A stretch of 62,081 nucleotides of DNA from a virus: positions 1-62,081 of the IMG/VR virus record IMGVR_UViG_3300008954_000054. One strand, given 5' to 3'. A program made the translations under genes and the position numbers. A model generated the notes under the pieces. That model was not told the DNA's origin. It saw only the letters and a list, made by a program, of their open reading frames with translations, and searched no databases. Below, piece by piece: positions 7,401-22,287 of the stretch; positions within the stretch are counted from its first letter, which is position 1, and each line of letters begins with the position of its first letter.

Positions 7401-10400
7401 AAGTATCCCAAGCCAGCACCCGCCCCTCAAAGGCTTCCGTGGTGCCGTCCCTGATGCCCGTAACCAGATCCCCGGCGGCGATCGAATTGGGAGCCACCGA
7501 AGGTGAGTCGAACTCCGTTCCAGTCGCCGTCACCTCGATGAGGAAGGACGGGTAGCCGACCTGGGAAGTCGCTGTCAGAAGACAGGAGAACCCCATCTCC
7601 CCATGCGGGGAGAGACCGTAGCTCACCCAGATATCCGCGAGTCCGGCAGCGGAACCCGTCGTCCGGTCGATAACCGTCAGATCCTCGGCACCCCAGACCC
7701 ACCGGCCCATGTAGCCGTACTCATAACCCTTGTCAGGCCACGCCTGAGCCGGCGTCGATCCCGGCTCCAGGTCTGTCCCCACTTGGAAGACCGGCGCCCG
7801 ACGAGGACCAGCGAACCAATCCGAGCCATGCCCGCGAAGGATCTCGATCCGAGCCCGAAGAGGACTCGATGCCGTGCTCTTGACGCGGTGAGATCCGACG
7901 AGATGCCCTAGCGGACGAACACCATTCTGGGAGAAACCGAGATCCGTGGCTCCCGAGTTGGCCGCCGCTTCCGAAGGGAAGTCACCCGCAACCGGAGGCG
8001 AGGGAGTGTCATTGGCGTCGTCCCCGAAAAAGAGCCCACAGGTGGGGATCTCGTAAGGGTCCGGGTCGAAGTCCCCAGCGAGGAGCCCCGCGATATCCCC
8101 TGACGAGTCCTCCGCGTTGACTCGCCCGACCTCAATCATGACATTGTAGAAGTCCTGAGCAGACGCGCTAGCGTCACCAGAACCCCACCCACCGCAGATG
8201 AGGCAGACCGTCTCCGAGCCCGTCGGGTGACGGGCATCCCCTGGTCCAATGAAGAGGAACTGACGCTCTCCAACAGGGGCTCCAGTCGGAGCCGCGATCG
8301 ACCCGGCAGCGGCACCGCCAATCCAGGCGTTCGGGGAAGCCGAGACCCCCGCGGGGGTCTCGTAGAACCCCGCATCGTCCAGCTTGTCCCCAACATACCC
8401 GGCGTAGGTGGTCTCGTAGAGAGCCTGATTCAGGAAAGCTGCGACCTCATCCGGATCCGTGGACGTGATCGTCGTGTCGTAGTTCAGAACGAGGGTAGCC
8501 CACTTGCTGCCGTTGTCGTTCTTGGGATCTGCGGAGAACACCGACAGAGCGAACCCAGAGGCCACGCTGGTGGTGAACGGGTTGAGGGCGTTGATTACCT
8601 GAGACTCCAGGTAATACTGAGCCGGGAGGACCCGGACCTGTCGGCCGGACACAAGGAGCCGCTCAGTGGCCCCACTCCCCTCCGTTGTTGATGGAGAGGA
8701 GGCCGGGGTGAGCCCGGAATAATGGCTGTTGATCGCCGTCTGGATATCAGTGGGGCTATCACTCCCCACCGCCGTGTAAGCGAACCAGTTGAGGGGGTTC
8801 GCGGGGGCCTCGGCATACTCCCGGGCGGTGATCAGCTTCCCACCAGCACGCCCGAAGATCTTAGCGTCTACCACCAGCCGCACACCGGCTACCAGCGGCG
8901 TCCAAGAGGCGTTCTCTGCCGACGCGATGGTGGAGCCTTCCACCACGGCACAGAGCCCCGCCACGTTGGTCGGGAGAGCCGTCTGGAAGACCGAAGAAGC
9001 CTCATCCACCACGAGGTCAAACTGATTCGGCGGGGAGGCAGAATCAGGGATCGTAGCGTTAACCGAAGAGACCTGCTCCACTCGGTTGAGGAACCGGGTG
9101 CTGGAGAGCGTCCCGGCTGCGAAATCTAGCGACAAGGAGGCGTAGAGACGTCCCCTCGCCACCTCCAACCCGACCTCGTTGTCCTCAGAGTCCGAAGCCC
9201 AGGAGGGTGCTGTGGTCGTCCACCGGTTCGACTTCGTATCGAGGAAGAGACGGGCCACCTCTGACGAGCCGCCCAGAGGGAAGCCCGCCCTCAACTCCGC
9301 CGCCGGCCCCTGGACCGCAGTTGGGGTGATCAGCAGAGAACCATCCGGCTGAGCCGTCAAATCACCGTAGGCGATTCGCCATGTACCTGACCGCCACTTT
9401 GCACCATAGGTGGTATCCAGGCGGAGATCGCCGTCGCCCTTCCTCAGAACCACGGTCGCCGGAACGGTGAACGGAATGGCGGCGTCCGTCGCCACACCAG
9501 TCAGGTCAAACGTCGTACCCGTGACGTTCCCGAGCCCGGTCCAGAAAATCCGACCCTGGCTCAACCCGAGAGGGCTTCCCCCCTCGTAAAGCACTTCGGC
9601 GGAACCCGTCTCCGGCCAGTTGGCCGAGTTGGTCCCCGTCAAGGTCATAGTGTGCGGGTTGCTGCCAGCCGCATGAGCAGTCAGCGTCGCGTGAACCCGA
9701 CCCCCGAACACATCCCGCTGCGTCGCGGAAGAATAGCCCAGGGTCGCGGACTCCAGATCGCCACCCGTGACCCGTAGCCCCACGCCCGTCTGCCCTGACT
9801 CACGGGAATACGGGACACAGGCAGCGAAGAGCACCACCTCACCCCGAGGGTTGTTTCCCCCGGAACCGATGATCCCCGCCGGGACAATCGCCCCCCCGGA
9901 GGACGCCGGGGGTGCGTGGGAGAGGTAAACGAGTCCGCCAGCGTAGTCCACCTCGATGAACTGGCTGTCTGTAGTGACCGAAGGATCGATCACCACATCC
10001 CGAGTGTAGATCGGCCGGCTGAAATCCGGGACCGCGTCCCCACCGCCGTCATCCTTCGCAGGGAAGAGCACCATCCGGAAGCCCAGGTCCAACAAGCTCC
10101 CAGGATCCGCCTGCCCGGTCCCGGATTCTGTATCGAAGATGGACCGATCCGCCCGACCCGGGCTCCCGCCAGAAGGCACCTTGCCGGAGGCATCGATCTT
10201 GGTCGTTCTGCGGACCCACTCCGGATCGATCAGATTCCCGAGCCTCGCCGCCTCAACCCGGTCCAGATCGAAATCACCCGTGAACAACTCGCTGATGGCA
10301 TCGTGGAGCGTGAAAGTCACCTCCACCTTGGCAGCACCGGTATGCCCCGTGGTGTCAAAGTAAGGACCGGGGCCGAAGAAGTACCGACCCGTCGCCGGGT

Positions 10401-11643
10401 CCACTTCAGGCAACCTCTTGAGCTGGTACTCGTCCGCGGCAGAGGCGTCCACGATCTCGTAGTAGCCAAGAAGGGCCGCCTCATCTCCGTGAGACAGGGC
10501 CGCCCCGTCTACCAGATTGACACCCGTGACCCGGACAACCTTGCCGGCGTCTCCCGCAACGACAGGGCTCCCCGCAATATCCTGAATCCGCCAGATCCCA
10601 GGACCGTCAGCAGGGGTGCCGCCGCCGTATTCCACCACACCTTGCATGGTCCTGCGGGCTACAGGGATGGGCGTCGCCGCCTGTCCGCCGTAAGAAGCCA
10701 CCTCACCTGCCGTTGAGGTAGCCTCAAACCCTCCGTCCTCCCACACCTTGTAAGGAGGGTAGAAGCCGGAAGAAGCCGTGTTCTCCGGCGGCACCACGAC
10801 AAAGATCCGCTCCCGCCCCACTGCGGGGCCGGAACCCGGCATACCAACCAGCCTCGTAACCTGAGGCTGGAAGAGCATGATGGAACGGAGGGCCGGGTTC
10901 AAAGGAATCGTGAAGACGCTGGACAACCTCTTTTCAGAGGCCAGCGTGATCACCCCGCCCGTGTAGGAGGACACCCGGAAGATTTCAAACCGAGCGGACC
11001 CCACATACTTGCTCAGCGGAGTCAGCCCATTGACCCCAGCCGCCAGGGTGCCGTCCACGGATCCCGTGTCCGAGATCACCAGATAGAGGCCCCCGTTGTA
11101 GGCAGAGATCCCCGTCCCGGAGAGGTTGTAGGCTTCTGCGAGATCGGCGGCAGACCGCGAGCCGCTAGGCCCGTCCGCCATCGTCAGAGTGTCATTGTTC
11201 CCTACAGATCCGACCGTCCACTGCCAGTCGCAGAAGGGAGAGGCCTTCGTGGGTCCAATGACATGGAAAGCGATCGGGTGACCGAGCAGCGAGGGGCCCT
11301 TTGGCCCGAACCGATGGGAGCCGTGGTCATAGGGCCTGAAGTTAATCTCAGGGTGGCCCGCGAGACCAAGTCGAGAGTCGATGGTCTGAACGTCGTGGGG
11401 GAACGCCGTCGCTGTCGATCCGCTCTTGTCCGCATTGCTGGAGTCGGGCTCCTGAGTCGCCTGGAAGCTCCGCTCAAGAGAACCAGCCCAGGAACCAGCG
11501 AGACCCGAGACGACCTCACTGCTCTGAATCTGAGCAACGCGGCTCAGATGCTCCTGCCAAGCCTCGCGAACGAAATCCGTGGCAGCCCTGTTCTCCAGAG
11601 CCTTGCGTAGGCGGATCAGGGTTTCGTCGTCACGAGTCGCCAT
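1405..11643 (-). CDS. Giant 3412-aa tail-fibre/adhesin-like virion protein
   Basis: One uninterrupted frame of 10.2 kb. The start is the ATG at 11643, with GGGAGC upstream. The first 80 residues look helical and polar (RLRKALENRAATDFVREAW), perhaps the attachment end. The rest is beta-rich with many Gly, Thr, Ser and Trp and no membrane segments. A short module built around a G..NG.W.I or GYYEI pattern appears near 10420-10560, 6290-6370 and 4095-4175 and resembles modules in other structural genes here. Few cysteines, no protease or glycosidase signature recognised. The role is inferred from position (fibre block, co-transcribed with the 252-aa gene) and composition: a very long fibre or large appendage on the baseplate. 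It could also be a decoration protein. Confidence 0.93.
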   Translation of the reverse strand: MATRDDETLIRLRKALENRAATDFVREAWQEHLSRVAQIQSSEVVSGLAGSWAGSLERSFQATQEPDSSNADKSGSTATAFPHDVQTIDSRLGLAGHPEINFRPYDHGSHRFGPKGPSLLGHPIAFHVIGPTKASPFCDWQWTVGSVGNNDTLTMADGPSGSRSAADLAEAYNLSGTGISAYNGGLYLVISDTGSVDGTLAAGVNGLTPLSKYVGSARFEIFRVSSYTGGVITLASEKRLSSVFTIPLNPALRSIMLFQPQVTRLVGMPGSGPAVGRERIFVVVPPENTASSGFYPPYKVWEDGGFEATSTAGEVASYGGQAATPIPVARRTMQGVVEYGGGTPADGPGIWRIQDIAGSPVVAGDAGKVVRVTGVNLVDGAALSHGDEAALLGYYEIVDASAADEYQLKRLPEVDPATGRYFFGPGPYFDTTGHTGAAKVEVTFTLHDAISELFTGDFDLDRVEAARLGNLIDPEWVRRTTKIDASGKVPSGGSPGRADRSIFDTESGTGQADPGSLLDLGFRMVLFPAKDDGGGDAVPDFSRPIYTRDVVIDPSVTTDSQFIEVDYAGGLVYLSHAPPASSGGAIVPAGIIGSGGNNPRGEVVLFAACVPYSRESGQTGVGLRVTGGDLESATLGYSSATQRDVFGGRVHATLTAHAAGSNPHTMTLTGTNSANWPETGSAEVLYEGGSPLGLSQGRIFWTGLGNVTGTTFDLTGVATDAAIPFTVPATVVLRKGDGDLRLDTTYGAKWRSGTWRIAYGDLTAQPDGSLLITPTAVQGPAAELRAGFPLGGSSEVARLFLDTKSNRWTTTAPSWASDSEDNEVGLEVARGRLYASLSLDFAAGTLSSTRFLNRVEQVSSVNATIPDSASPPNQFDLVVDEASSVFQTALPTNVAGLCAVVEGSTIASAENASWTPLVAGVRLVVDAKIFGRAGGKLITAREYAEAPANPLNWFAYTAVGSDSPTDIQTAINSHYSGLTPASSPSTTEGSGATERLLVSGRQVRVLPAQYYLESQVINALNPFTTSVASGFALSVFSADPKNDNGSKWATLVLNYDTTITSTDPDEVAAFLNQALYETTYAGYVGDKLDDAGFYETPAGVSASPNAWIGGAAAGSIAAPTGAPVGERQFLFIGPGDARHPTGSETVCLICGGWGSGDASASAQDFYNVMIEVGRVNAEDSSGDIAGLLAGDFDPDPYEIPTCGLFFGDDANDTPSPPVAGDFPSEAAANSGATDLGFSQNGVRPLGHLVGSHRVKSTASSPLRARIEILRGHGSDWFAGPRRAPVFQVGTDLEPGSTPAQAWPDKGYEYGYMGRWVWGAEDLTVIDRTTGSAAGLADIWVSYGLSPHGEMGFSCLLTATSQVGYPSFLIEVTATGTEFDSPSVAPNSIAAGDLVTGIRDGTTEAFEGRVLAWDTSTNTGELLVVSRGTYETTDGHLLPQGFQPTSIGAFSPTANTASTDLEVSIIPRPGFNQFASAFRSLAKHANTALTNTSDEYGQGLDGGSADTTATSSFSGVLVGGGRVDLISLIGPSALPGVSFTTPVVGEGLAASPLQVTTTFLESGVFSTSVALGNLDWPAPDSGGVYDQGLATGESTSESLQRLPKGSYAGGAHVGGVAGLRVSGDAQIWLTNPRPLASTQATAYVRRMLAVKGSVGWNLMEVGPAATGGYDNGMAHAISGFGAARRAGSAAETMFIQEATVSLGLTRADLHAFLMASGQLDWPGTQDDLIRGADAIGALRAAWWVGNPDMPVLMPFLEGKYLQLEDTSGGYTSDNNNGVWRIVGAPVITMSGLSAELESKFPALTSLATGQTGSTANIRDMEDGTLPASAVVSVLQLRVERYAVPPANDANVAATLESFVPESVRANQLQGHPWGIYADIQATEKVYVADVVDPGGSPTGAPQGIHGMSLDPSWLGREDLPMEMIPVFRDGPGTDRWPLPGAARLLGIRSSEDSRGRVTSHAWFSWSGTPGTTTTHHVYARAVVHATARADGLDDLSSASTWGEFAMDRAGRVSFVGHTQRLGPGVLLDGGLGLVMASAFRATPRPVEMETLAGFSVVGQASAWPLTSHFRSRSHGAPSVPSTFNTVEFFEDATVVGPHGSLQFEDARAAQGLPFRLKENAVAASSFASPARLLIARTSPDLGGTDEPNIHITPNDSLFPAPWSGIRFRSPGTVRYERPFRVIDAKGGHQGMNALLGAPSSGIRGIEVPTFGECLLLPKGPPTMAGSGWADFVTDTAVGSTPTDTPLYEFRANKTTDFGISPEMCFSSAERTKDGDRTEGPASHEAGPGVLSQAYRHSRSRSVTGDYPNSGTAEQMRILDGMVIEDVSNGCFFTAGHLGREFAYTNVNTLSGELGNGTRGPINGSITINHGGVTNELQVVYDIGPYVDVSEDPEADTVNGTSNGFGDRIDTVTVVVAASDQEIEQVRRPLVGHRYRITPNVEFVPVLGPRGVGGGLIPPWTDATDPTTSIDSADAIFYSTRYSFKPPGGDFGAGDVGRMIYICGTYNYKYTGWWVVIDVLDNYEVQPAIVNEFDGTGANAALTTSVAVVRKLRREGDAKKHSTTFDGALPLVARAPLLEAASNFRTNQSLMSGTPGDFGNMSLWITDNTGASFYTAGPTILAPGSADPDGIVTLLNSTAAFNGLSTSFGVQFIVWSSNGASLEVTYDLSLLTATQAAQVTGNRAALRVEWLSTSTGHTMPTAGNARDPMSIGFHSYPGHASQLDRGFGDRNNALPIVDNSQHFSRSAAAGLRWVFSAPLTEEHSGSYVHLKRPAKYRFNTLLASQSEAGASLTTKAWVGGNPYPGDDIDEQVDIFRINRCPTTADLILGGDCEEYYTELIKVGRVVSGTNGDSGRGRPLLYSPLGVYGFWPDTVSGEIPSRGHNYVMQYAIQPVARERIVTISPNNMKSSTWVVPGATTSGDVDVGTGPKVMTNTTSGLGFDLSTPWVLMDRSMVSGRTGTLLWNADTGRNYVWTPGPAWWQLWVPSPDNQRDAEEPMPTLRVDLTDAFTQAMQPGGGIASPFPGKQPKGARLLRLWVNFGVWGNNLPSRGEEATPGYVDTSGDPLAPYYMAFNLIVELPGSHAREFKSGISLEEHPYASGPGISPFGGRAPTVMYNHDDNTGTHKAGGAVVVPLYVNREAGDIMPNVMERWVDAGPSNTPGAESDWRTGDPEYGFGCSSESSANDLHGSISYLGNAHNPIVWGSQDFTASVWGARDDSLVLASPLPRSSLTSGGIRSAFTSGLWPDMDDFSGTTPPAVCPQALTGIVVAHGGENPKAPDINAGSAINNVPTTCPHAFTIALTPVGDDFDATDSASIQKFGRRLTPGSFRPKDRPFKVGNWLDYILERYGIAAPSGSMLPPGARVYLEITAGNGDVTNSTGAGCWVGSVKAAFEVETADGTAYVENVNHLGNDR

Positions 11644-11688
11644 GCAATTAGCTCCCGGTAGCCTGAGGCACCTCTACCGAAGGGCCGG

Positions 11689-11694
11689 CTATAG
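11689..11694 (-). promoter_or_regulatory. CTATAG element before the 3412-aa gene
   Basis: CTATAG sits within GGCTATAGCC, 45 bases upstream of the ATG at 11643. CTATAG also lies 23-36 bases upstream of the structural-gene starts at 22251, 34532 and 42524. It may mark the transcription start of each structural block. The hexamer is self-complementary, so orientation is taken from the downstream gene. Confidence 0.35.
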
Positions 11695-11728
11695 CCCTCA
11701 TATTGAGAGGTAATTTCCAGGGGCCAGA

Positions 11729-11734
11729 TCGTAT
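11729..11734 (+). promoter_or_regulatory. TCGTAT promoter-like element for the split moron
   Basis: TCGTAT followed by GACCC lies 23 bases before the ATG at 11758. The spacing nearly equals that at 24171, 34680 and 40252 (22-23 bases). A GGAG ribosome site lies between element and start codon. Confidence 0.5.
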
Positions 11735-11757
11735 GACCCAGCAACCGGAGTAGATAA

Positions 11758-12186
11758 ATGAGTCTCTTCCTTTCCCTGGTCGTCGGGGCTACCCTGCTCG
11801 CCATCCTCCTCGCGGGCTCCCTAAAGCAGAAGCCACGGAAGCCGCCCCCCCTCGCCCTGGTAGGACCAGCCCCGTACATCGGGCCGGCGACCCACACCCA
11901 CTCCTCAATGGGGACTCCCTACGGGAAGGAGCTGCCCTGGCAGGAAGCCACCCCGGACGGACACCTCGCGTGGGCTCACGTCCTGCTGGGCTCCGCTCCG
12001 CTGGATGAAGGAGCGGGCTACTTCCACAACGTCGGCCACGAAGCTGTCGTGCTGAAGACGGATCTCTCGCCGGAGCTGGTGGCAGCGTCCATCGCAACCA
12101 CCTCTGGGCTTCAGGGGCAGGTGCGACGCAGCGGATCCTACCCGAACACCTACCGCTGGATCAGCTACGAGGTCTCCTCGACGGAG
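11758..12186 (+). pseudogene. 5' part of a membrane-anchored moron gene split by an insertion
   Basis: Starts at ATG 11758 behind GGAG. It encodes an N-terminal membrane anchor (MSLFLSLVVGATLLAILLAG), a basic/proline-rich linker, and a globular part ending at EVSSTE. The native frame ends here: downstream of 12186 the frame runs open to 13008 only as antisense of a methyltransferase gene. The missing last 20 codons lie after the second repeat (15120-15182). Joining 11758-12186 to 15120-15182 gives an intact 163-residue protein ending SIEVRRLT, so the gene was clearly interrupted. The protein family is not recognised; with one N-terminal anchor it may sit in the host inner membrane. As it stands, a 416-residue chimera could be made, whose C-terminal two thirds is probably meaningless. 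Confidence 0.8.
12012..12186 (+). repeat. 175-bp direct repeat, left copy
   Basis: Matches 14945-15119 over 175 bases, in the same orientation, with a single difference: G at 12128 versus A at 15061, changing Arg to His. It lies wholly within the coding region of the split moron and abuts the left edge of the methyltransferase cassette. Sequence similarity stops abruptly at both ends. Confidence 0.95.
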
Positions 12187-12225
12187 TCGGACGACTGCTC
12201 CATGGAGTGTGTATCCGAAGGTCTC

Positions 12226-13329
12226 TTACCAACCGAGCGAGAGTTGACCTCCAATGCCCTTTCGCACCACTTTTCCGGTTCTCCGCCGCTCCAAGGCCAC
12301 CAGCACCGCTTCCCCAAGCCGCCGAGCCAAGAGGGGGGGCACGGCATTTCCCACTTGGTGGGCAGTTGGTACAGTCTTGCCAACAAAGATGAAATCGTCG
12401 GGGAAGCTCTGAAGACGAGCGGCCTCACGCATGGTGATGTTCCGGTCGGCCACCGGGTGGGCGAAACGGCCGCGGGTAAAACTATTACACTTGGTGGTGA
12501 TGGTTCCCGCAGGCTTATCCCAGTGGAGACGACCGTAAACGCCTCGGTGGCCAGCCTTTTCCACGCTGACCCGGTGACATGGAAGACGGAGTTCCTCGGG
12601 GATATCTGCTCGGCCGCCGCCCATTGGGACGTGGGAAATACGCCGGCGATTCTGGGCCGAGATGTTGTCTCGGTTGTGATTGGGAATTCTGGATGCGGCC
12701 TCCGGACGGGCAAACGGACACGGAAGGTCGCCTATAGCGTCACGAACTGTAGACCACGACTCCGAATTGTGGGTCGGTTCCGGCCAAATGAAAGCCTTGG
12801 GGCGATCGACTCGTTCGCCGACCAAAAACGCACGTTTTCGATGTTGAGGCACACCAAAATCAGCGGCATTCAATGTGTTCACATCGGTTCGGTAACCGAG
12901 AGTTCTTGCAAATTCAATCGCTTGAGACAATTGCGCCTTGCCCCTCCTGTTGCGGATGGCGGCGACATTCTCCATGATGAAGAACTCAGGCTCCATCTCA
13001 CCAACTAACCGAATGAAATCGAGTACGAGTTGGTTTCGATCGTCTTCGTTGCTTCCCCGTCGCTGTCGGGAAAAACCCTGACATGGAGGGCCGCCGACAA
13101 CAAGAGCGGGGTCTCCTCGATACAAATTAGCCTTGGCGAGCAGCATGTCCCCATGTAGCGTCGAGGCATCAGCCTCCAACACATGGTCGCCGAGGTTGTG
13201 GCGGTGGGTTCTGACGGCCTCCGTGTTCCAGTCGAAGGCGGCGCCTAAGCGGAAGCCGGCTTGGAGCAAGCCAAAAGCGAACCCGCCGGCTCCGGCGAAG
13301 CAGTCGATAGCAACGGGAAGGTCGCTCAC
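12226..13329 (-). CDS. DNA (cytosine-5) methyltransferase B
   Basis: A 367-residue enzyme transferring a methyl group from S-adenosylmethionine to C5 of cytosine in a specific DNA site. All key motifs are present in order: FAGAGG for cofactor binding (11-16), GGPPCQGFS with catalytic Cys83, MENV (119-122), QHRKR (162-166), a target-recognition region (about 170-270), then REAARLQSFP (301-310) and VGNAVPP (326-332). Length is typical for a compact C5 enzyme. Its GTG start overlaps the stop of methyltransferase A (GTGA), so it is translationally coupled. No restriction endonuclease or Vsr gene is adjacent, making it an orphan enzyme that may protect phage DNA from host restriction. The target sequence cannot be read from the protein. 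Confidence 0.96.
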   Translation of the reverse strand: MSDLPVAIDCFAGAGGFAFGLLQAGFRLGAAFDWNTEAVRTHRHNLGDHVLEADASTLHGDMLLAKANLYRGDPALVVGGPPCQGFSRQRRGSNEDDRNQLVLDFIRLVGEMEPEFFIMENVAAIRNRRGKAQLSQAIEFARTLGYRTDVNTLNAADFGVPQHRKRAFLVGERVDRPKAFIWPEPTHNSESWSTVRDAIGDLPCPFARPEAASRIPNHNRDNISAQNRRRISHVPMGGGRADIPEELRLPCHRVSVEKAGHRGVYGRLHWDKPAGTITTKCNSFTRGRFAHPVADRNITMREAARLQSFPDDFIFVGKTVPTAHQVGNAVPPLLARRLGEAVLVALERRRTGKVVRKGIGGQLSLGW

Positions 13330-14627
13330 TTGAGCCTCTTGGTGTGCTTGCGACCAGGGATGCTGCTCGAGAACGAGTTGCTGGTCGGCTCCAATACATC
13401 ACCGTCCGTGTTCATCTCGACGACCTCGTTCGGATCGCGGGACAACTCCGTCAAGATGTGAGCAGCCAGATGAGCGGCGAATTGCGGCGGCACGGCGTTG
13501 CCAATCTGCTGAAACCTGTCGTCAAATGGTCCCTCAAACATCCAAGAGGAGGGGAAGGCTTGCAACAGGGCCGCTTCTCGGATGGACAGGCCACGGTCTT
13601 GTTCCGGATGAACGTACCGACCGCTGGCCGGATTGCGGGAGTAGCCGGTGATCGTGTTGGCAGGTCGATCCCAGAACATGCGCCCGTAAACATCACGGTA
13701 ACCATCCACTCTGTCGAGGCACTTTGGACCTACGCCGGGTGGTCTTGAGCCGCCGTCCTTGGGGATTTGTCGAATCGTAGCGACGGTGCTGGCTCGGTGT
13801 CGGGTACAGGCATGCATCGGATCGTCGGGTGACGGGGAGCGGGGCCCGATGGGAGGCAGGTGCCCAATGGCGGAGCGTACGGTGCGGTAGTCAGCGCTGT
13901 CGGTCAGGAAGGGGTCAGGCATTCGGAATGGGCGTGGAGAGGCCAACACCAGGGCTCGGAATCGGGCCTGAGGTACACCAAAACCAGCAAGGTTGTGGAT
14001 GCGGGCCCGCACAATGTAGTCGGGATCGAGCAATTTCTTCAGGGACTGAAAACGGTCTAAGTACTTATGAGCCAGCAACTCCGGCACATTTTCCATGACT
14101 ATGAAGTCAGGGTTGAGACGGCGTGCGATGCGAGCAAAGGCGTCTACGAGGTGGTTGCGTTCGTCAGATTCCCGGCGAAGGCGCTTTCCGTGAGCGGAGA
14201 AGCCCTGACACGGGGGCCCCCCGATGAGAACCTTGGGGGCCCCCGAAACGAGGCCGAGGCTACTCAAGAAGTTGTCGATGTTGTCATCGGATGCCGCGAC
14301 AACGGCCAGATCTTCTCGTCGCACCCGTACCGGCAGGTTGCGGTCGAACGTGTCGGCCGCGTGGGGGTCGAGGTCTGCCGCACCCGCCAGTCGGAAACTG
14401 TTGATAGAGCGCCCGATAGCTTCAAAGCCGGCAGCAAGCCCACCACAACCGCAGAAGAGGTCAATGACTTCGATCGGGCCGGAGGCCGGGGGGGCTTGAG
14501 GATCGAAGGCGGCGACAGCCTGCTCCGCTATCGCGCGGAGTGGATACCGAGCCCCTTCTCCGCCTTGGCCCTCTCGACTTGTGGCCAACGGTTTCGGCTG
14601 AATCTGGCTGGACGGGACAATTCTCAT
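13326..14627 (-). CDS. DNA (cytosine-5) methyltransferase A
   Basis: A 433-residue C5-cytosine methyltransferase. Motifs: DLFCGCGG (56-63), GGPPCQGFS with catalytic Cys140, MENV (178-181), QARFR (220-224), a variable recognition region (about 225-320), IREAALLQAFP (349-359) and IGNAVPP (375-381). I chose the ATG at 14627 because it overlaps the stop of the small regulator gene (TGATG) and lies just upstream of the conserved region. The frame stays open upstream to 14750 but would then overlap the regulator. A 50-residue N-terminal extension precedes motif I, and a Ser/Lys-rich tail follows motif X. It differs clearly from enzyme B in the recognition region, so the pair probably modifies two different sites. 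Confidence 0.96.
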   Translation of the reverse strand: MRIVPSSQIQPKPLATSREGQGGEGARYPLRAIAEQAVAAFDPQAPPASGPIEVIDLFCGCGGLAAGFEAIGRSINSFRLAGAADLDPHAADTFDRNLPVRVRREDLAVVAASDDNIDNFLSSLGLVSGAPKVLIGGPPCQGFSAHGKRLRRESDERNHLVDAFARIARRLNPDFIVMENVPELLAHKYLDRFQSLKKLLDPDYIVRARIHNLAGFGVPQARFRALVLASPRPFRMPDPFLTDSADYRTVRSAIGHLPPIGPRSPSPDDPMHACTRHRASTVATIRQIPKDGGSRPPGVGPKCLDRVDGYRDVYGRMFWDRPANTITGYSRNPASGRYVHPEQDRGLSIREAALLQAFPSSWMFEGPFDDRFQQIGNAVPPQFAAHLAAHILTELSRDPNEVVEMNTDGDVLEPTSNSFSSSIPGRKHTKRLK

Positions 14628-14836
14628 CAGGGCTGCTTCCGGTTGACGGGGTCGAAGAGGGGGCGTTGTTCGGGGAAGCCGACCGCGTCCAGGTGTTGCT
14701 TGATCAGGTGATCTGCAAACGTGCTTTTCTTGCGGCATGTCTGCTCGCAATAGGCTTGGTAGCGCTCATACTCAACAAGGCTGAGGCAGACGGTGATGCG
14801 TCGAGTGGTCTGGTGCTGTTTGCTCTCCGCAGGCAT
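14627..14836 (-). CDS. Small ribbon-helix-helix-like regulator
   Basis: A 69-residue protein. The ATG at 14836 is preceded by GAGAGAGGAG at good spacing; an upstream TTG in frame lies inside the promoter and is rejected. After a short polar start, RRITVCLS would form the DNA-contacting strand, and two helices follow (LVEYERYQAYCEQTC and KSTFADHLIKQHLDAV), the usual order of an Arc/MetJ/CopG-type domain. The tail is proline-rich. It is the first gene of the methyltransferase operon and its stop overlaps the start of methyltransferase A. Its promoter carries repeated TGCGC elements, so it may control the operon, much as C proteins do in restriction-modification systems. The family call comes from pattern only. 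Confidence 0.65.
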   Translation of the reverse strand: MPAESKQHQTTRRITVCLSLVEYERYQAYCEQTCRKKSTFADHLIKQHLDAVGFPEQRPLFDPVNRKQP

Positions 14837-14857
14837 GGGTCGCTCCTCTCTCCCGGC

Positions 14858-14887
14858 AGTATAACAAGCCTGCACAAGATTGCGCAA
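14858..14887 (-). promoter_or_regulatory. Sigma70-like promoter of the methyltransferase operon
   Basis: On the minus strand TTGCGC (14882-14887) is followed after 18 bases by TATACT (14858-14863), 21 bases before the ATG at 14836. Both hexamers are close to bacterial sigma70 consensus. The -35 box overlaps one of three TGCGC elements. It does not resemble the TCGTAT elements of the phage genes, which suggests the cassette arrived with its own bacterial-style promoter. Confidence 0.65.
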
Positions 14888-14927
14888 AACATCTCAAAAG
14901 TGCGCACTCTTACGTCATAGTGCGCTA
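14880..14927. promoter_or_regulatory. Three TGCGC operator-like elements spaced 20 bp apart
   Basis: TGCGC begins at 14881, 14901 and 14921, exactly two DNA turns apart. The first lies in the palindrome TTGCGCAA (14880-14887), the second in AGTGCGCACT (14900-14909) and the third in the half-matching AGTGCGCT (14920-14927). Being on one face of the helix and overlapping the -35 box, they are good candidates for binding by the regulator at 14627-14836. Confidence 0.6.
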
Positions 14928-14944
14928 TTCGCCGAAGGAAGCGA

Positions 14945-15119
14945 AGCGGGCTACTTCCACAACGTCGGCCACGAAGCTGTCGTGCTGAAGACGGATCTCT
15001 CGCCGGAGCTGGTGGCAGCGTCCATCGCAACCACCTCTGGGCTTCAGGGGCAGGTGCGACACAGCGGATCCTACCCGAACACCTACCGCTGGATCAGCTA
15101 CGAGGTCTCCTCGACGGAG
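14945..15119 (+). repeat. 175-bp direct repeat, right copy
   Basis: Second copy of the sequence at 12012-12186, with one substitution (A at 15061). It is joined on its left to the cassette promoter region and on its right to the genuine 3' end of the split moron gene. Confidence 0.95.
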
Positions 15120-15182
15120 GCCCGACGCCGGGACTTCGGAACCTACACCCGATTCTCTATCGAAGTCCGGCGCCTGACATAG
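14945..15182 (+). pseudogene. 3' part of the split moron gene
   Basis: Carries the C-terminal half of the interrupted protein: the duplicated segment (from AGYFHNVGHEAVV to EVSSTE) plus the native end ARRRDFGTYTRFSIEVRRLT and a TAG at 15180-15182. There is no ATG or ribosome site; the frame is open leftward to a TTG at 14880 inside the cassette promoter. It is probably untranslated. Its last 26 bases overlap the 3' end of the lipoprotein-like gene on the minus strand, a convergent arrangement that probably predates the insertion. Confidence 0.8.
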
Positions 15183-15849
15183 TCACCTCGATAGCGACGT
15201 AGGTGTAGCGGTCATCCTGAGTAGGGACGCTCCCCGTAGTCACCACTAGCGTGTGGTCTCCCCGATCCCACTCGCGGTAGACTCGGACATATCCCCACTC
15301 GACTGCGTAGAAGAAGGGGACTTGGCTGCTCTCCCAATCCCGACAACGGAAGTTGGTGAAGTAGCCCTGAGCGGAGGGGTTGCTCCAATCGCAGTGCTTC
15401 CCGGGCGTCCGGGAAGGGGTCGGGAGGGAGCGCATCCTTCCCCGGCCCTCCTTCAACCAGAGTGCCTCATCCCAGACGAAGGACTCTTCGTACTCCCCCT
15501 TGAGGGACGCCGTGAGAGCCTCGAAATAAGCCCACTCTTCGTCGGTGGATCGCTCAGGGCTGTAGAAGAGCTGGCTGTCGTTCCCAGGGTACAACGGCTC
15601 CGGGAGGAACAACCACTGAACCAGTGTCCCCCCTTCGTCGAACCTGTACTCCGTCTCCCCCGCAACCCCCATCCGAGTCTCCTTGTACCGGAGAATACCG
15701 GACTGGACCAGGAGAGGCGGGAGGCCCTGATGGGCGTGGCGGACCAGATGCTCGGAGGAGCCCAGCGGGGGCCCCATCATGTCAAAGGTCACGGGGCCCT
15801 TGTCACAAGCCAGGGTCAGCAGGCAGAAAATCGTCGGGGGAAGTCTCAT
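15157..15849 (-). CDS. Putative lipoprotein or secreted accessory protein
   Basis: A 230-residue protein. It begins with a short hydrophobic segment, MRLPPTIFCLLTLAC, followed by DKG. Cys15 preceded by TLA resembles a lipobox but with a poor -3 position, so lipid attachment is uncertain. The mature part is rich in Trp, Tyr and acidic residues (WAYFEALTASLKGEYEESF). It has two further cysteines near residues 153 and 169 that could pair outside the cytoplasm. No enzyme family is recognised. The ATG at 15849 lies 26 bases after a TCGTAT element, so it is a single-gene unit. An exported moron might alter the host surface, for example to block superinfection; that is only a guess from location and signal. 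Confidence 0.75.
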   Translation of the reverse strand: MRLPPTIFCLLTLACDKGPVTFDMMGPPLGSSEHLVRHAHQGLPPLLVQSGILRYKETRMGVAGETEYRFDEGGTLVQWLFLPEPLYPGNDSQLFYSPERSTDEEWAYFEALTASLKGEYEESFVWDEALWLKEGRGRMRSLPTPSRTPGKHCDWSNPSAQGYFTNFRCRDWESSQVPFFYAVEWGYVRVYREWDRGDHTLVVTTGSVPTQDDRYTYVAIEVTMSGAGLR

Positions 15850-15875
15850 CTCATTGCTCAGTAGTTCCCTTCCCT

Positions 15876-15881
15876 ATACGA
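15876..15881 (-). promoter_or_regulatory. TCGTAT promoter-like element
   Basis: Minus-strand TCGTAT followed by AGGG, 26 bases before the ATG at 15849. It is flanked by a 4-bp inverted pair (GTTC and GAAC), as at several other copies. Confidence 0.5.
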
Positions 15882-15917
15882 ACCCGCCCAGGAAACTTTC
15901 CGAAGAAAGATTCCAAG

Positions 15918-15948
15918 AAACCTGTGGGCCCGCGTATATAGGGGGTTT
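15918..15948 (-). terminator. Possible hairpin at the end of the 1004-aa gene
   Basis: AAACC and GGTTT pair around a 21-base loop that itself contains GGGCCC. The hairpin overlaps the TAA stop at 15947-15949. There is no clear T-run, so it may end transcription weakly or separate the fibre operon from the lipoprotein unit. Confidence 0.2.
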
Positions 15949-18900
15949 ACGAGCGGATAATTTCCAAACCCACGAGGCCGCGGAGGTTATCTACGGTGCC
16001 GCTGCTACCCCCCTGCTCCAGGTTGAGGGCCTTCCCTCCGGCGGTATCCTTGATGATAACCTTCACGAGGACCGGGACGGTCCCTTCAGCGGAGACGAAG
16101 AGAGTCGCCGCTGGACCTACGTGGACCCGCACCTGACACTCCACAACGCCCGAGACAGCGTCCACATCATCAAACGTGGCAGGTCCCGTGACCTGACAGC
16201 CGGCTCCATCTTGGAAGGAATCCTGCTTGCTAGGGCCGGCACCGTCGCCCCGCCCAAGGTCCATCCAGGTCGTCCGTCCAGGGACCTTGACCAGGATAGC
16301 AATCTCCGGAGCCCCAGGCCCGGGAGGATCGTAAGCGAAATCGTTGAGGAGAAGGCCCTTCACCTTGAGAGTGAATAGGGCTGAACCTTCGGCTGCAACC
16401 GGGGTACCCGAATTCTTGAACCCTACATCGAAGGCTCGGATGTAGATCCGGTCTCCAGTCTCCGAGCTGTAATCCGGCTGGTCTGCGGCGATATCAGAAT
16501 CCCCTGAAGGACCGGAGGGACGCATCCCGGAGCTGTAGTCGTGCTGGGGGAAAATCAACACGCCTGCGCTGGGGAAAGCAGACGCCACCCCGTCCGAGAG
16601 GGGCGGGTTCCGATCCGGGAGACCCGCGACCTGAAGCTCTCCCGCAGGGATGGAGCTGAGATGGTTCCCAAGCTGCACCCAGGAACTCGTATCGTAGCCC
16701 GAGACCGCCGTAGTCCCCGCTCGTACAGGGACGTCAATCGCAGAAGAGGCCCCGCCGAGCCCTGGCCCCACCAGGAGAGCCTGATCTCCCGCCGACACCC
16801 CCGGGAAGGTAGCATCATAGCGGTAGACCTCATCAAGGAACCGCTCCTCTACGTCCTTCTGAGCCGTCTGAGTACCCGCCGCCGCAGTGGTCGCCGTCGC
16901 GGGGTTGGCATACACGGACTCATCGGTGCTGTGGAAGAGCAGGGTGTCCCCGTTGGTCTCCAGAATCGTTGTTCCATACACGGCCGTCGCCGCTGCGCTG
17001 TTCCCCAGGGGACGACGGATAAACATCCTGACCCGAGCATCCCTGGAGAAGCTGGGAGCCGAATCGTCCCCCGTGGGCTGGAAGCCTGTACCGGCGATCG
17101 TAAAATCAGCCTTGTCCGTGAGACCAGGAGGGGCGACCAGGGAGAAAGGACCGTCAGTGTCCCCGAGATGAGTCATGTTCATCTCAATCCGGCCTGCCTT
17201 GGACGTGCCTGTACCAGCGGGCACGGAAAAGGTCGTCCCCTGAGCGAACGGGCCCACCCAGAGGAAACCGACGTCAGGGCCTTCCAAGCCAGAAGAAGCG
17301 GGGGTCCCGTTCCCCACTCGATAGCTGCTATCCCAGACCCCCGTCGCCTCCATCGGGAGCGACGTGATCTTCCAGGGGTTGAGCTGGGTGGACGGGATGA
17401 AGTAGCTGACACCGCTCAACACCTGGACGTTCACCGGAGAACCCGGGTCAAAGGTGTAGACCGTGTTGACAAACACGGGAGCCGCCGTGCCGTCATCATC
17501 CTCGATATGAGCACCGCGGACGATGCGGTAGCTCCCCGCCGGATCGAAGGGCGAGGAACCCGTGGAGAGGTTGGCCGGAAGCTCCACGTTGGTCCAATTG
17601 ACGATATTGGCAGACCATAGGGCACTGTCCGCAGGGGAGGTGCCGTCCACCACGAGGGCCTCAAAAGCGGCCTCCGTCTTGAAGTGGAGGAGCAGGAAGG
17701 AGCCGATATCCCGGGCGTCGCCGCCAGCTACCGTGGGGAACTCGAACCGCTGACGGAAACGAGCCAATTGGAAGGTCCAATAGGTCGTCTCAAAATCGGT
17801 GAAATCACCCGCCTGAGTGAGATCCGTCCCTGCATTGAGGGCGATTGTCGGCTTGCTGAAATAGCGAGTCCGCTCTGCCGTCGGTGTGAATCGCAACCCC
17901 GTCGAGGTGCTGTAGTCGTTCAGGTAGGGCAACCTGTATCGGAAGAAGTTGTTGTCATCCCGGTTGTCCGCCGCTCCCGCGAGTGTGGGAGCCGACGCGG
18001 AGGTAGTTCCCCCGAGGATATCGAAGCCCAGACGGGTCATGCCGACCGTCGTGTCCGCCGCCGGGGGGGAGACGCCACCCGTGGAAGAGACTCCCGTGTG
18101 CAACTCAGAGAGATCAAACTGACCTGTTGCTCGCCCAGGGAAGGTATAGGGATCAAAGCCGTCTGAAGTCGAGTCTCCCAGCGTGAACATCCCGCCCGGG
18201 TCACCGTCGCATCCAGAAACCTTCCCCGATCCAAGGGAGAGAGCGGCGATGCACCGAAGGTTCTGAGCCTGACCGGTGAAATCCGCAAGGGTTCCTCCGG
18301 CTGGGAAGTACAGGAGAGCCAACACGCCTCGATCAGCGGGGTAAACCGCGCCGCTGACTACAGCGTAGCTGTTCCCTGATCCGGGCTTCGGCATCACCCG
18401 AGCGGTCTCGATGACCGCACTCCCCCGAGTGAACCCGCCCTGATAAGTGTCCCCTGAACCCCCGCCCGTATAAGTCCCGTCCGCGACGTTGAAGGTGCTG
18501 TCCGTTGAGGGGTCATTCCCCGGCGTCGTGAAGCCGTCAGCGTACTTCGGGAGGACGTGGAAATAGGGGTAGATATCCGTGTCAGCGTTGGGGGCTGTTA
18601 TGTCCGGACATGTCACCACACCATTAGCGACGAGGCCGGCGTCGTTCAGCTTCAGGACTCCCCAATCCGGGACACCAGAGAACGTCAGGTAGCTGAGATC
18701 CTTCCCCAGACCAGGAGGTCGGGGCGGAACCAGAGCAGCCAGCTCGTCAAAACCCTCCTGCGTGCTGTCTCCGTCAAAGGAGCCCGACTCGTCTTCCAGA
18801 GCGATGGCTGACGCCGCGTGAGCGGCTGTCGGGTCATCAACATGCCCGCTGACGCTGGAAACCCCGCCCGCGCTTGGGGCAAGGGAAACAGCCTCAACGC

Positions 18901-18961
18901 TGTCCTGGGCAGCGAGACCCGACCCGACCTGGAGGTCACCGGGGTTGTTACTACGAGGCAT
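15947..18961 (-). CDS. 1004-aa virion structural protein, fibre block
   Basis: The ATG at 18961 overlaps the upstream stop (TGATG), coupling it to the 1096-aa gene. The N-terminus is polar and low-complexity (Ser/Ala/Gly/Asp-rich, about residues 1-60). A long beta-rich body follows, with repeated DPAGSYRIV-like and VLSGVSYFI-like strands. The C-terminal 150 residues look like a beta-sandwich (APEIAILVKVPGRTTWMDLG, then VPVLVKVIIKDTAGGKALNL) and may be a receptor-binding or capping domain. No signal peptide, membrane segment or catalytic motif. Most probably part of a tail fibre or other surface appendage, judged from place, size and composition. Confidence 0.92.
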   Translation of the reverse strand: MPRSNNPGDLQVGSGLAAQDSVEAVSLAPSAGGVSSVSGHVDDPTAAHAASAIALEDESGSFDGDSTQEGFDELAALVPPRPPGLGKDLSYLTFSGVPDWGVLKLNDAGLVANGVVTCPDITAPNADTDIYPYFHVLPKYADGFTTPGNDPSTDSTFNVADGTYTGGGSGDTYQGGFTRGSAVIETARVMPKPGSGNSYAVVSGAVYPADRGVLALLYFPAGGTLADFTGQAQNLRCIAALSLGSGKVSGCDGDPGGMFTLGDSTSDGFDPYTFPGRATGQFDLSELHTGVSSTGGVSPPAADTTVGMTRLGFDILGGTTSASAPTLAGAADNRDDNNFFRYRLPYLNDYSTSTGLRFTPTAERTRYFSKPTIALNAGTDLTQAGDFTDFETTYWTFQLARFRQRFEFPTVAGGDARDIGSFLLLHFKTEAAFEALVVDGTSPADSALWSANIVNWTNVELPANLSTGSSPFDPAGSYRIVRGAHIEDDDGTAAPVFVNTVYTFDPGSPVNVQVLSGVSYFIPSTQLNPWKITSLPMEATGVWDSSYRVGNGTPASSGLEGPDVGFLWVGPFAQGTTFSVPAGTGTSKAGRIEMNMTHLGDTDGPFSLVAPPGLTDKADFTIAGTGFQPTGDDSAPSFSRDARVRMFIRRPLGNSAAATAVYGTTILETNGDTLLFHSTDESVYANPATATTAAAGTQTAQKDVEERFLDEVYRYDATFPGVSAGDQALLVGPGLGGASSAIDVPVRAGTTAVSGYDTSSWVQLGNHLSSIPAGELQVAGLPDRNPPLSDGVASAFPSAGVLIFPQHDYSSGMRPSGPSGDSDIAADQPDYSSETGDRIYIRAFDVGFKNSGTPVAAEGSALFTLKVKGLLLNDFAYDPPGPGAPEIAILVKVPGRTTWMDLGRGDGAGPSKQDSFQDGAGCQVTGPATFDDVDAVSGVVECQVRVHVGPAATLFVSAEGTVPVLVKVIIKDTAGGKALNLEQGGSSGTVDNLRGLVGLEIIRS

Positions 18962-21900
18962 CAGCTACTCACCGTCAACAAGAGGTTGCGAGTCCGATAA
19001 ACCGCGGCACAGGTTCGGTTACCTGAGTCCACGAATCGGACAGTGTTTTCCTCGTCCAACTCTGCAAGGCGACTGACCACCACCAACAACACCTCATCCT
19101 TCCGGAAGAGCAGCGAGTCCGCCGTCGCTCGGGCCAGGAAAGGAATGAAGACCTTGTGGCGGACGACTCCGCTGAGACCCTGGGCGAACGCGGTAGGCCG
19201 GTAAGAGGAGGTGTCCGAGACCTTGTACATTGCCCGGAACTCAACATCCTTGTCCGCAGACGAGAACGTGAAGTTCCCGGTGCCGTCTACAGGAACCAGC
19301 CCACGGAGGTTGAGCAACCCTGTCTCTGCGTTGAAATCGTCAATGGAGATGTTGCTCGTCGCCGCGAAGTACCACTCACCTGGGAAGTTGCTGGTCCCGT
19401 CGTCGTTGACGGGAATCTGATCCAGGGGAGCCAGATACGGGTAAGGCAGATCGACCGACCCCATCCCTACCTGACCCGTCCACAGCCCCTCGGACATAAC
19501 CAGAGGTTCTACCGTCAGGGGATCCGGAAGCTCGCTCATCGGAGCGTTTCGAGTGCCCACAGTTTGAGGTGCGTTGCTACGGAAGTAAACCCCGACCTGA
19601 TAGCCGCCCCCGCTGGCACCATAGTTCGGGACCGGGTCCTGAGCGAAATACGTGATCTGGCAGAGGGTCTGCCCCGCTCCGGAGAGAGGATCCTTGGACG
19701 GTGATCCACCCGCAGTGTCGAGCACGATCTTTCGGCTACTCGACCCGTACTCGGTAGACGCAGCGGCTACATCATGTGCCTGAGAAGCCACCTGATCCGT
19801 AACCCCCGTGAGGTGAGACCCTGACCCGTAGATCCGGCGAAGAGGGTGGATGTTGGTCGTGTCCCGTGAGACCACCGTGTCCGTGATAGGGGTACCTGAT
19901 CCGAAACCGGTCCCGGGGTCGTTCGCTATATACTCCAGCCCGACCTCACGATAACCGCTACGGAAAGTCGGGCTCAAGAGATTCTCCATGTCGCCGGGGC
20001 GTTGGCTGGTGGCGTTCTCCAGAACCGGACCACGAGGCCAGGGGCCAGCGTCCGGGCTCAAGGTCACGTCCGGGGTATCCGTGACGCCCACACCCATCGG
20101 GTAGGTCAGCTCAACCTCAAGGAAGACCCGCCGCTGAGAACCAACGTCCGAGCTGGTGCCCACCATCGCATGATCAGGGTTCCCAGAGTCGCCCCCGTTC
20201 ACCTGAACCTCATTAGCGTCCAGAGTGAGCTGGAGATGACCCGTCCCGACCCCGGTGATGGACTTGAACTGGACCGCCTGATCTACAGCGGTGGTGTAGT
20301 GCCCGTCATCATGCCACGCCCCGAGAACATCCGTAATCATCGTCCCTGGAGGAGCGAAATCAAGAACACTCGCGTTGTGACCAGGACCGGGGCCCGAGAA
20401 GGTCGCGTTCGCGGGATCAAAAGCCCCCATCGTGGAAGCATTCAACTCCGTCAAGTCCAGGTTGAGAACGTCGCCCTCACCCCAGCCATTCCAGGCTCCA
20501 TTCGCCTGGGCCACATACTTCCCAGGGTATGTCCCTGAGTCATAGGAAGGCACGAACTCGAAAACCACCCGCTCGACCACCGCCTGATCAGCAAATCGTC
20601 GAGCGACGTGATCGAAATTCCGGATCGTGTCACCGCGAGTTGTCGAACCGCTCGTGGGGTTGTTTCCGCCGTGGGTCGTGTCTCGGCCAATCTGATTGCA
20701 GACCAGGAACTTCGTGGACACATCACCCGAGCCTGACCCGAGGGTCTGCTTGTCCGAAGCGTCCACAGCCCAGGTAGCCGTCTGCCCGTCAAGGAGACTC
20801 TGCATCTGGAATTGCAGCTCAGCGGCGAAGTCAAAGCCCATCGCCGCGACGTGCCGCCGGAGGTCAAGGAGGTCCCGGCTGTTAATCGCGTCCGAGAAGG
20901 CGCCGTCAGGACGATCGGACTCTCCCACCGCAATGACACCAACCTGAGGATTCGTGAACCCCGTGTGCGTGCTGGGGAGCCCTCCGTTCGCGTTCGTCTG
21001 CGGATCCCAACCTGATCCAGCCCCCCCGTTGTAGGAGTTGTTCCGCCGGAACACGAAACATACCGGGATGGCGTAGACGAAACCATCTACCGTGCCCAGA
21101 GCACTCGCCGCAGTGGAGGAACCATCACCCGCGACCCACAACCCGCTGTCCTCTCGATCATAGGCGACAGCGGAGCTGTTGGAGCTGGTAGAAGACAGGT
21201 CCGCGGCGACAAAGGGATAGCCAGCGACCGGGCTGGCTTCCGCCCCTTGAGCGAGAATCGCGGTGTTGGAGAAACCCTCGGGCTGTGTCTTGTGGTTGAC
21301 CGCGATGGTCTGACCCGTCGTGCGAAGCCGATACTGGACCTGCACCCGCTTGGTCGTCTCCGCGTCCACCACCGTGTCCTCGATATCATCATCAAGCCAC
21401 ACGCCGCTGGGAGAGTCTACATTGCCGTGCCGGTAGATCTTGTCCTGAGCAGGCTTGTTCGCCGTATCAGAACCCCCAGCCAGAGTCGCCCCGGATAGGA
21501 CGAAAGCCGTCGCATCGCTAGTCGCCAGAGTGATCGAGTTGCCGGCGGCGCCTGGGGTCGCGGCCTTGACGGTGACCGTGTCCGTTCCGTTGGACGCCGC
21601 GGTCACCGTCGTGATGTAGGTCCCGATAGCCGAAGCGAGGTTGGACGCCGTCAGAACATCCGACGCCCCAATCAAAAACTCGTTCGCCCCGGGAGCAGCA
21701 GCCCTCGCCGTCAGCACAGTCCCGTCAATGGTCGTTGTGTCCCCGTCGTCCATATTGGAGGTGACCGTCTGAATAGTCCCGGACGCCCGAGGGGACCGAG
21801 AAACCAGGGCTCGCCACACCTCCAAGAAGACAAAATCTGTCCGCTTCACGTCCGGGGCTGAGCCCCCGAAGACCGGAGCCGAGTCCAGGGTGATCAGGTT

Positions 21901-22251
21901 GTCTCCGCTCGTGGTGGTCCCCGTAAACTCAACCACCACAGGCATCCCGGCGACTACAGCGGTCCTCCTCGTCATATGGAAGGCGTCAACCGCAAATCCG
22001 GGATCCGCAGGAAGATCAAAGCTGAAATCGGCGTACCCGTTGTGTCGAGTCTGACCCCTGAGCCAACCCGAGGGATGCTGCCATTGGCGGAGCAAGCCCC
22101 GAACCTCTTGAGCGATATCCCCCGGGAGGTTCAAATCCGCGTCCAAGACCGGATGACCCGCCTGCATCACCACGGCATCGAAGGACCGCTCCCCTGCGGG
22201 GAGATGCCGCGATACATCTGATCCCGAGAAATACTTATCGCGGTTCGCCAC
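18961..22251 (-). CDS. 1096-aa virion structural protein with DUF6519-like start
   Basis: Starts at a GTG (22251) behind GGAGG. The opening has the pattern Y.SG.DVSRHLPAGERSFDAVVMQAGHPVLDADLN, like the conserved QQGR..LDADWNE start of DUF6519-type phage proteins, which often lie in baseplate/fibre regions. Around residues 160-270 is a Gly/Thr/Ala-rich domain (TTTIDGTVL, PGANEFLIGAS, TASNLASAIGTYI, ATPGAAGNSITLATSD) of a kind repeated in many phage virion proteins. The rest is beta-rich. It is probably the baseplate-proximal part of a fibre, since the conserved start is at the N-terminus. It is followed directly by the 1004-aa gene. The family match is from memory of the pattern. Confidence 0.92.
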   Translation of the reverse strand: MANRDKYFSGSDVSRHLPAGERSFDAVVMQAGHPVLDADLNLPGDIAQEVRGLLRQWQHPSGWLRGQTRHNGYADFSFDLPADPGFAVDAFHMTRRTAVVAGMPVVVEFTGTTTSGDNLITLDSAPVFGGSAPDVKRTDFVFLEVWRALVSRSPRASGTIQTVTSNMDDGDTTTIDGTVLTARAAAPGANEFLIGASDVLTASNLASAIGTYITTVTAASNGTDTVTVKAATPGAAGNSITLATSDATAFVLSGATLAGGSDTANKPAQDKIYRHGNVDSPSGVWLDDDIEDTVVDAETTKRVQVQYRLRTTGQTIAVNHKTQPEGFSNTAILAQGAEASPVAGYPFVAADLSSTSSNSSAVAYDREDSGLWVAGDGSSTAASALGTVDGFVYAIPVCFVFRRNNSYNGGAGSGWDPQTNANGGLPSTHTGFTNPQVGVIAVGESDRPDGAFSDAINSRDLLDLRRHVAAMGFDFAAELQFQMQSLLDGQTATWAVDASDKQTLGSGSGDVSTKFLVCNQIGRDTTHGGNNPTSGSTTRGDTIRNFDHVARRFADQAVVERVVFEFVPSYDSGTYPGKYVAQANGAWNGWGEGDVLNLDLTELNASTMGAFDPANATFSGPGPGHNASVLDFAPPGTMITDVLGAWHDDGHYTTAVDQAVQFKSITGVGTGHLQLTLDANEVQVNGGDSGNPDHAMVGTSSDVGSQRRVFLEVELTYPMGVGVTDTPDVTLSPDAGPWPRGPVLENATSQRPGDMENLLSPTFRSGYREVGLEYIANDPGTGFGSGTPITDTVVSRDTTNIHPLRRIYGSGSHLTGVTDQVASQAHDVAAASTEYGSSSRKIVLDTAGGSPSKDPLSGAGQTLCQITYFAQDPVPNYGASGGGYQVGVYFRSNAPQTVGTRNAPMSELPDPLTVEPLVMSEGLWTGQVGMGSVDLPYPYLAPLDQIPVNDDGTSNFPGEWYFAATSNISIDDFNAETGLLNLRGLVPVDGTGNFTFSSADKDVEFRAMYKVSDTSSYRPTAFAQGLSGVVRHKVFIPFLARATADSLLFRKDEVLLVVVSRLAELDEENTVRFVDSGNRTCAAVYRTRNLLLTVSS

Positions 22252-22287
22252 GTAGCCTCCGAAGGACTCGACCTTACCTGCTGCCTG

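Follow-up and report, generated by a model that had tools for sequence, protein, structure and literature searches.

Insertion with long target duplication was reportedly described for restriction-modification (R-M) genes by Nobusato et al. in 2000 (Gene 259:99) and Furuta et al. in 2010, from Kobayashi's group. According to passages of PMC3874152, the target duplications that accompany the insertion of some R-M systems are long and variable, on the order of 100 bp; excerpts of PMC3031569 state that unequal crossing-over can amplify these forms, excerpts of PMC1643837 derive the pattern from a comparison of Helicobacter pylori strains, and the subject is also treated in parts of PMC2749054 and PMC4978471. 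Here we describe a locus of similar layout in the virus record IMGVR_UViG_3300008954_000054, a stretch of 62,081 bp that was analysed at its full length and is termed the window. In this locus, an operon comprising a ribbon-helix-helix (RHH)-like regulator and two C5-cytosine DNA methyltransferases, M2 and M1, lies inside a phage moron gene, X, and is bracketed by 175-bp direct repeats. We consider it probable, at about 0.7, that this self-contained modification operon, of the kind found in R-M loci, entered X by a copy-type event, that it is likely protective, and that it would be removable via the repeat.

The locus resembles the R-M inserts with long target duplication in carrying modification genes, no recognised transposase, and a long direct copy of the target on the order of 100 bp. 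It differs in that the host is a phage genome, the target is a moron gene, and methyltransferases are present with no recognised restriction enzyme. The repeat (175 bp) is of target type rather than cassette type in codon use, as a target copy should be. As far as found, the layout thus appears to match R-M insertion with long target duplication, and the phage setting is the new part. In the open-licence literature searched, judged largely from titles and the openings of abstracts, no phage case of this layout was found. The original prediction had held that no such phage element was described; this stands for phages in the literature searched, but the layout has been described for bacterial R-M genes.

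LlaJI contains two C5 methyltransferases together with McrB/McrC-like restriction subunits, as described in parts of PMC1459862. The tandem C5-cytosine methyltransferases of the cassette are similar, and relatives of the pair adjoin McrB/McrC-like genes at two other loci (L084 and L090); unlike LlaJI, the cassette lacks recognised restriction genes and an RHH-like regulator precedes the pair, the likeness being one to the described gene content and not to LlaJI sequences. GACGC/GCGTC, the site recognised by LlaJI, is not avoided in the phage (104 seen vs 110.9 expected, and 204 vs 192.0). With the orphan methyltransferases of phages, regarded as anti-restriction, the operon shares a phage-borne location and the lack of a recognised partner nuclease, whereas the pairing, the dedicated regulator, the nesting in another moron gene, and the 175-bp duplication set it apart. 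Some integrative elements carry the 3' end of the gene that they enter. Part of the target gene is likewise duplicated at the ends of the present insert; in contrast to those elements, the insert leaves its target gene split instead of restoring it, and the cassette has no recognised integrase.

The repeat and the split gene

The two repeat copies, 12012-12186 and 14945-15119, are identical at 174 of 175 positions and are separated by 2758 bp. The sole mismatch, G at 12128 and A at 15061, leaves exact stretches of 116 and 58 bp. The coordinates, the single substitution and the spacing given by the original prediction proved exact on recheck. No other exact direct repeat of at least 25 bp is present within the window, for which the chance expectation of such pairs is ~6e-6 by a simple composition estimate. 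The features of the split gene and of the cassette are listed below, with lengths in amino acids (aa) and open reading frames abbreviated as ORFs.

11758-12186, plus strand: 5' part of X, codons 1-143, ending in the left repeat copy; open frame, codon score 0.232
12012-12186, plus strand: left repeat copy, G at 12128
12187-14944, no strand assigned: inserted cassette of 2758 bp between the repeat copies; M1 and M2 with foreign codon use
12226-13329, minus strand: M1, C5-cytosine DNA methyltransferase by family match, 367 aa, GTG start overlapping the M2 stop; PF00145 at E 5.3e-60
13326-14627, minus strand: M2, C5-cytosine DNA methyltransferase by family match, 433 aa from ATG; PF00145 at E 1.2e-47 (474-aa ORF)
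14627-14836, minus strand: ribbon-helix-helix-like regulator, 69 aa; relatives upstream of similar methyltransferases; weak ParG and 2kel profile matches
14837-14944, minus strand: candidate control region of the operon, from sequence and palindrome scan
14945-15119, plus strand: right repeat copy, A at 15061; contig 3300007504_000014 begins exactly at 14945
15120-15182, plus strand: 3' end of X, last 20 codons and stop; joined frame open

Joining of 11758-12186 with 15120-15182 gives an open frame of 163 codons and a stop, and either repeat copy serves, which confirms the clean 163-codon gene proposed earlier. Judged from this frame, gene X is split in the carrier phage. Searches for X gave no match at E up to 1 among 50,697 phage records, no Pfam match, and one chance-level PHROG (E 0.27); the whole region likewise has no match in the phage records. 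Nine related records yielded one weak match (E 0.03) with two internal stops and no convincing homologue. In the viral_contigs collection, where records very near the window may be omitted, X occurs in 3300007754_000004, the repeat part occurs in 3300007504_000014, and neither occurs elsewhere. The proposed check for an uninterrupted X thus returned none in viral_contigs and none, at a convincing score, in the nine related records.

A repeat of 175 bp is long for short-read assembly, and a wrong join at the shared segment, for example between a phage with an intact X and a separate cassette-bearing molecule, has to be weighed. Such an artefact is favoured by IMGVR_UViG_3300007504_000014 (52,688 bp), which breaks exactly at the repeat: its first base corresponds to 14945, and it is then window-like for 47,137 bp with 21 differences, of which 0 fall within 14945-22934. 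However, the same order and both junctions are present in two differing assemblies, since IMGVR_UViG_3300007754_000004 (G001; 84,412 bp) shares 48,971 bp with the window at 6 differences, both junctions included. Furthermore, the mismatch permits phasing with words of at least 118 bases, the G allele belonging to the junction of the X 5' part with the cassette and the A allele to that of the cassette with the X 3' end. An artefact is therefore regarded as quite improbable.

The start of the shorter contig is open to another interpretation, because a repeat with two left neighbours in the assembly graph would give such a start. If assembler words of at least 118 bases were used, both repeat copies would be phased correctly; a contig start with the A allele would in that case imply another sequence to the left of this allele, for instance a cassette-free X. 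Conversely, a mixed population of carrier and cassette-free phages would yield a contig that starts at the right repeat with the A allele if the words exceeded 117 bases. The start at 14945 is only a hint of a cassette-free X, as it depends on the assembler word length. We also note that 12 of the 21 differences of this contig are clustered in 338 bp (59098-59435) of one gene (57587-59995), which suggests local recombination or a fast-changing segment.

The inserted operon

M1 and M2 match PF00145 with 204 and 163 bits, respectively (curated cut-off 22), and TIGR00675 with 168 and 143 bits (cut-off 100.65), and are 37% identical to each other. The PCQG, ENV, and QxRxR columns are invariant across a four-sequence methyltransferase alignment; PCQ, ENV, and QxRxR are taken here as C5-cytosine methyltransferase motifs. 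By family profile and conserved motifs, M1 and M2 are C5-cytosine methyltransferases.

The frame of M2 is open to 14750, and the ATG chosen is the one that overlaps the stop of the regulator. The junctions read TGATG between regulator stop and M2 start, and GTGA between M2 stop and M1 start. As the stop and start codons overlap in all three genes, they have the appearance of one operon, so that the earlier description of the 2758 bp, a regulator-like gene with two DNA methyltransferases, is confirmed and refined.

The 69-aa ORF has no Pfam match, and an Arc-like PHROG was reached only at E 0.19. A search of its profile against the PDB returned ParG (E 0.035) and 2kel (E 0.12) as the two best matches, both weak, and the predicted structure, of low confidence, consists of two helices and no strand. 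The ORF looks like an RHH (Arc/CopG) regulator on the basis of these profile matches and the model. Inside the insert, a promoter-like pair is formed by TTGCGC (14882-14887) and TATACT (14858-14863), 18 bp apart. TGCGC boxes, which are palindromes, lie upstream of the operon as TTGCGCAA (14880-14887) and AGTGCGCACT (14899-14908). The boxes are candidate operators and the TTGCGC/TATACT pair is a candidate promoter, through which the RHH-like regulator may control its own operon.

No transposase or integrase was recognised in family searches of the regulator, M2, and M1 and in a Pfam search of ten further, overlapping ORFs of the insert (the longest of 214 aa), which have no Pfam match up to E 0.1. 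Restriction genes, including McrB/McrC-like subunits, were likewise not recognised in 12187-14944. A transposon was rejected because no transposase was recognised, no matching ends were seen by eye, and the repeat is far longer than ordinary target duplications. Integration at a tRNA or another specific site was also rejected, with no tRNA in the window and no integrase recognised in the cassette. The possibility of a phage terminal repeat was dismissed, since both copies are traversed by two contigs and the sequence is contained within the open X frame.

Origin of the cassette and of the repeat

A synonymous-codon score was trained on 15 window genes, and phage segments of matching length served as nulls. 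M1 scores -0.041 against a 367-codon null of 0.173 (standard deviation (sd) 0.030, minimum 0.094, n = 37), and M2 scores 0.035 against a 433-codon null of 0.174 (sd 0.028, minimum 0.116, n = 30); both genes are therefore read as foreign. The joined X, in contrast, scores 0.221 against a 163-codon null of 0.173 (sd 0.044, n = 95), and P230, the gene convergent with X, scores 0.209 against a 230-codon null of 0.172 (sd 0.038, n = 66). The repeat alone (58 codons) scores 0.258 against a 58-codon phage null of 0.174 (sd 0.071, n = 281), above all 13 58-codon segments of M1 and M2, which range from -0.185 to 0.122. Owing to this phage-type codon use, duplication of target DNA, rather than donor homology, is the best explanation of the repeat.

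The copy-type event, replicative or break-repair, by which an operon of bacterial R-M kind would have been inserted into X may be pictured as follows. A break or a stalled fork within X would start the process, the operon would then be copied from foreign DNA, and a return to another X copy 175 bp upstream would duplicate the intervening stretch. The restriction gene of the operon would have been lost, or was never present. Homologous recombination across the long direct repeat would allow the insert to be lost or amplified, and its loss would restore an open X frame.

A single homologous crossover (Campbell-type) with a circle that bore the cassette plus 175 bp of X would yield exactly the observed layout, such entry being the inverse of repeat-mediated excision. 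However, the circle must first have acquired the X piece from this or a near-identical phage, given that the repeat is phage-like in codon use, and no replication or integration gene was recognised within the 2758 bp. We regard this origin as unlikely; single-crossover entry is possible for later spread between phages and weaker for the first event. The original prediction had offered both routes, of which copy-type insertion is favoured and the single-crossover circle is not, the score of the repeat exceeding the segment maximum of M1 and M2.

Two partial copies of X would also be expected if they were relics of an older tandem duplication or of paralogous X genes flanking the operon. Nevertheless, the 174/175 identity, the sharp bounds, and the single open frame that runs through the X 5' part, the repeat, and the X 3' end argue for a single recent event, and none of the nine related records contains a convincing X homologue. 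Such relics are regarded as very improbable, and copy-type insertion into X is retained.

Insertion site in related phages

X lies in an extra block together with a second gene, as follows.

11644-15946, no strand assigned: extra block of 4303 bp between the P1004 and P3412 genes, comprising X, P230 and the cassette; missing in three of the four relatives examined
15157-15849, minus strand: P230, orphan, convergent with X and overlapping its end by 26 bp; codon score 0.209

Relatives were gathered via a search with the baseplate-J protein; among the 11 loci that it gave, 8 belong to distant relatives (42-45% identity). The orthologues of P1004 and P3412 are separated by 48 bp in G004 and 47 bp in G006, against 4303 bp in the window. 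G005 has the arrangement of G004 by tblastn, at a constant offset, and may be the same phage; the absence of the X/P230 block in these three of four relatives thus represents two distinct arrangements. In the fourth, G009, P1004 is followed by P252, and P3412 was not found in the stretches examined. P230 has no family in Pfam, PHROGs, or NCBIfam and no match in the examined stretches of the relatives. X and P230 are thus themselves additions at this junction, one of which in turn contains the operon. The earlier view of a foreign modification cassette inside a moron gene gains support from the three relatives that share this junction but have neither X nor P230.

A second extra block, of ~3.4 kb (22252-25657), lies between P1096 and a 215-aa gene whose matches adjoin in G004. 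Within this block, 22313-23050 has a codon score of -0.009 (null minimum 0.080) and 23111-23626 a score of 0.023 (null minimum 0.045), and 23472-24125 (plus strand) matches the GmrSD_N domain at E 3e-13. The window also encodes two giant proteins of 3412 and 3525 aa (1405-11643 and 46014-56591); other large environmental phages encode relatives that align with these over long stretches at ~30% identity.

Relatives of the methyltransferase pair

M2 and M1 have matches in 434 and 564 phage records, respectively, all below 60% identity. An M1 relative lies directly downstream of the M2 match, on the same strand, in 13 of 13 loci (at least 43% identity, more than 300 residues). These are L081-L092 from viral contigs and L044 from a Saprospiraceae metagenome-assembled genome, the G001 copy being excluded; L072 was also left out of the count, its M2 match (91 residues, 49%) being interrupted by a contig end. 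At three chosen plasmid loci, with M2 matches of 37-39% identity, the methyltransferase has no annotated second one adjoining.

In L044 and L082 the pair is followed by a gene for a Type ISP/IIG-like restriction enzyme. L084 and L090 have an adjoining AAA and McrC-like (McrB/McrC-like) gene pair, which in L090 lies on the opposite strand. Seven further loci (L083, L085, L086, L087, L088, L089, and L091) have nearby ORFs of roughly similar sizes or arrangement. In L081, the closest (65%), no restriction gene was recognised among the neighbours tested, and L092 was checked for a restriction partner against PADLOC only. Relatives of the regulator were found at 3 of the 12 viral pair loci (L084, L087, and L092) and at L144, which has a single methyltransferase; a second search returned the same four and none in L081. 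Given the conserved M2-M1 pair and the restriction partners at some loci, the phage operon is probably the modification half of an R-M-type locus.

Flanking repeats were surveyed at 109 methyltransferase loci, 79 of them from the best 80 of 488 matches and 30 from another search, by looking for direct repeats of at least 30 bp and at least 90% identity that bracket a methyltransferase; some may have been missed, as many of the loci run up to the end of their contig. Bracketing repeats were found at 2 of the 109. One, L080, is the G001 copy of the present cassette; at the other, L100, the repeat measures 77 bp and consists of two tRNA-Met genes. The proposed search for the cassette at other sites with its own flanking repeat found no second site. 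In L100 (7540-11204), a methyltransferase and a gene that is ATPase-like by eye lie between the identical tRNA-Met genes, with an integrase-like ORF adjoining, so L100 is possibly a tRNA-linked cargo site.

Three further methyltransferase-like genes are encoded in the part of G001 that lies outside the window (1-35441): an N6/N4-type one (10398-11600), one at 12972-13754 that matches a family of phage DNA methyltransferases, and a DUF4942-methyltransferase (33772-35187). A DnaB-like helicase is also present there.

Function and reversibility

Several observations weigh against insertion of a foreign operon into X. The event is a single one, because no second long non-tRNA flanking repeat was found among the 109 surveyed loci. 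The status of X as a gene rests on its open frame and codon use, as no homologue was found in the libraries and phage records searched. The regulator scores 0.077, inside the wide null for its length (0.175, sd 0.064). A cruder codon log-odds gives 0.104 for the joined X and 0.116 for P230, below the 0.187-0.292 of the other phage genes tested; by the same measure M1 (-0.066), M2 (-0.008), and the regulator (-0.086) all lie under X and P230. The G+C content of the insert is scarcely different from that of the window (59.4% vs 61.4%). Finally, a cassette-free X was not found, so the direction, gain by insertion, is drawn from codon use and from distant relatives without X.

The phage operon, in which no restriction enzyme was recognised, is therefore probably an anti-restriction module. 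The operon probably methylates the phage DNA and would in this way shield it against a host restriction system of the corresponding specificity. Excision between the repeats, with X left open, is possible. The original prediction of an exchangeable cassette holds insofar as the X frame reopens if the repeats recombine, but no cassette-free X was found. Phages replicate in many copies and recombine readily. The locus could even act as a reversible modification switch, in which carriers (methylated, X split) and cassette-free phages interconvert, or exchange, by recombination at the repeat, a conjecture that we hold to be doubtful though worth considering. If it were true, a single phage lineage could both acquire and shed its protection from one type of host restriction.

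The finding bears on the long-standing question of how R-M genes move without a transposase, for which long target duplication has been inferred from comparisons of bacterial genomes. The same scar is now seen in a phage, where, owing to the 175-bp repeat, any loss or exchange of the cassette can be measured directly. The insert suggests a route by which a phage acquires a ready-made anti-restriction operon.

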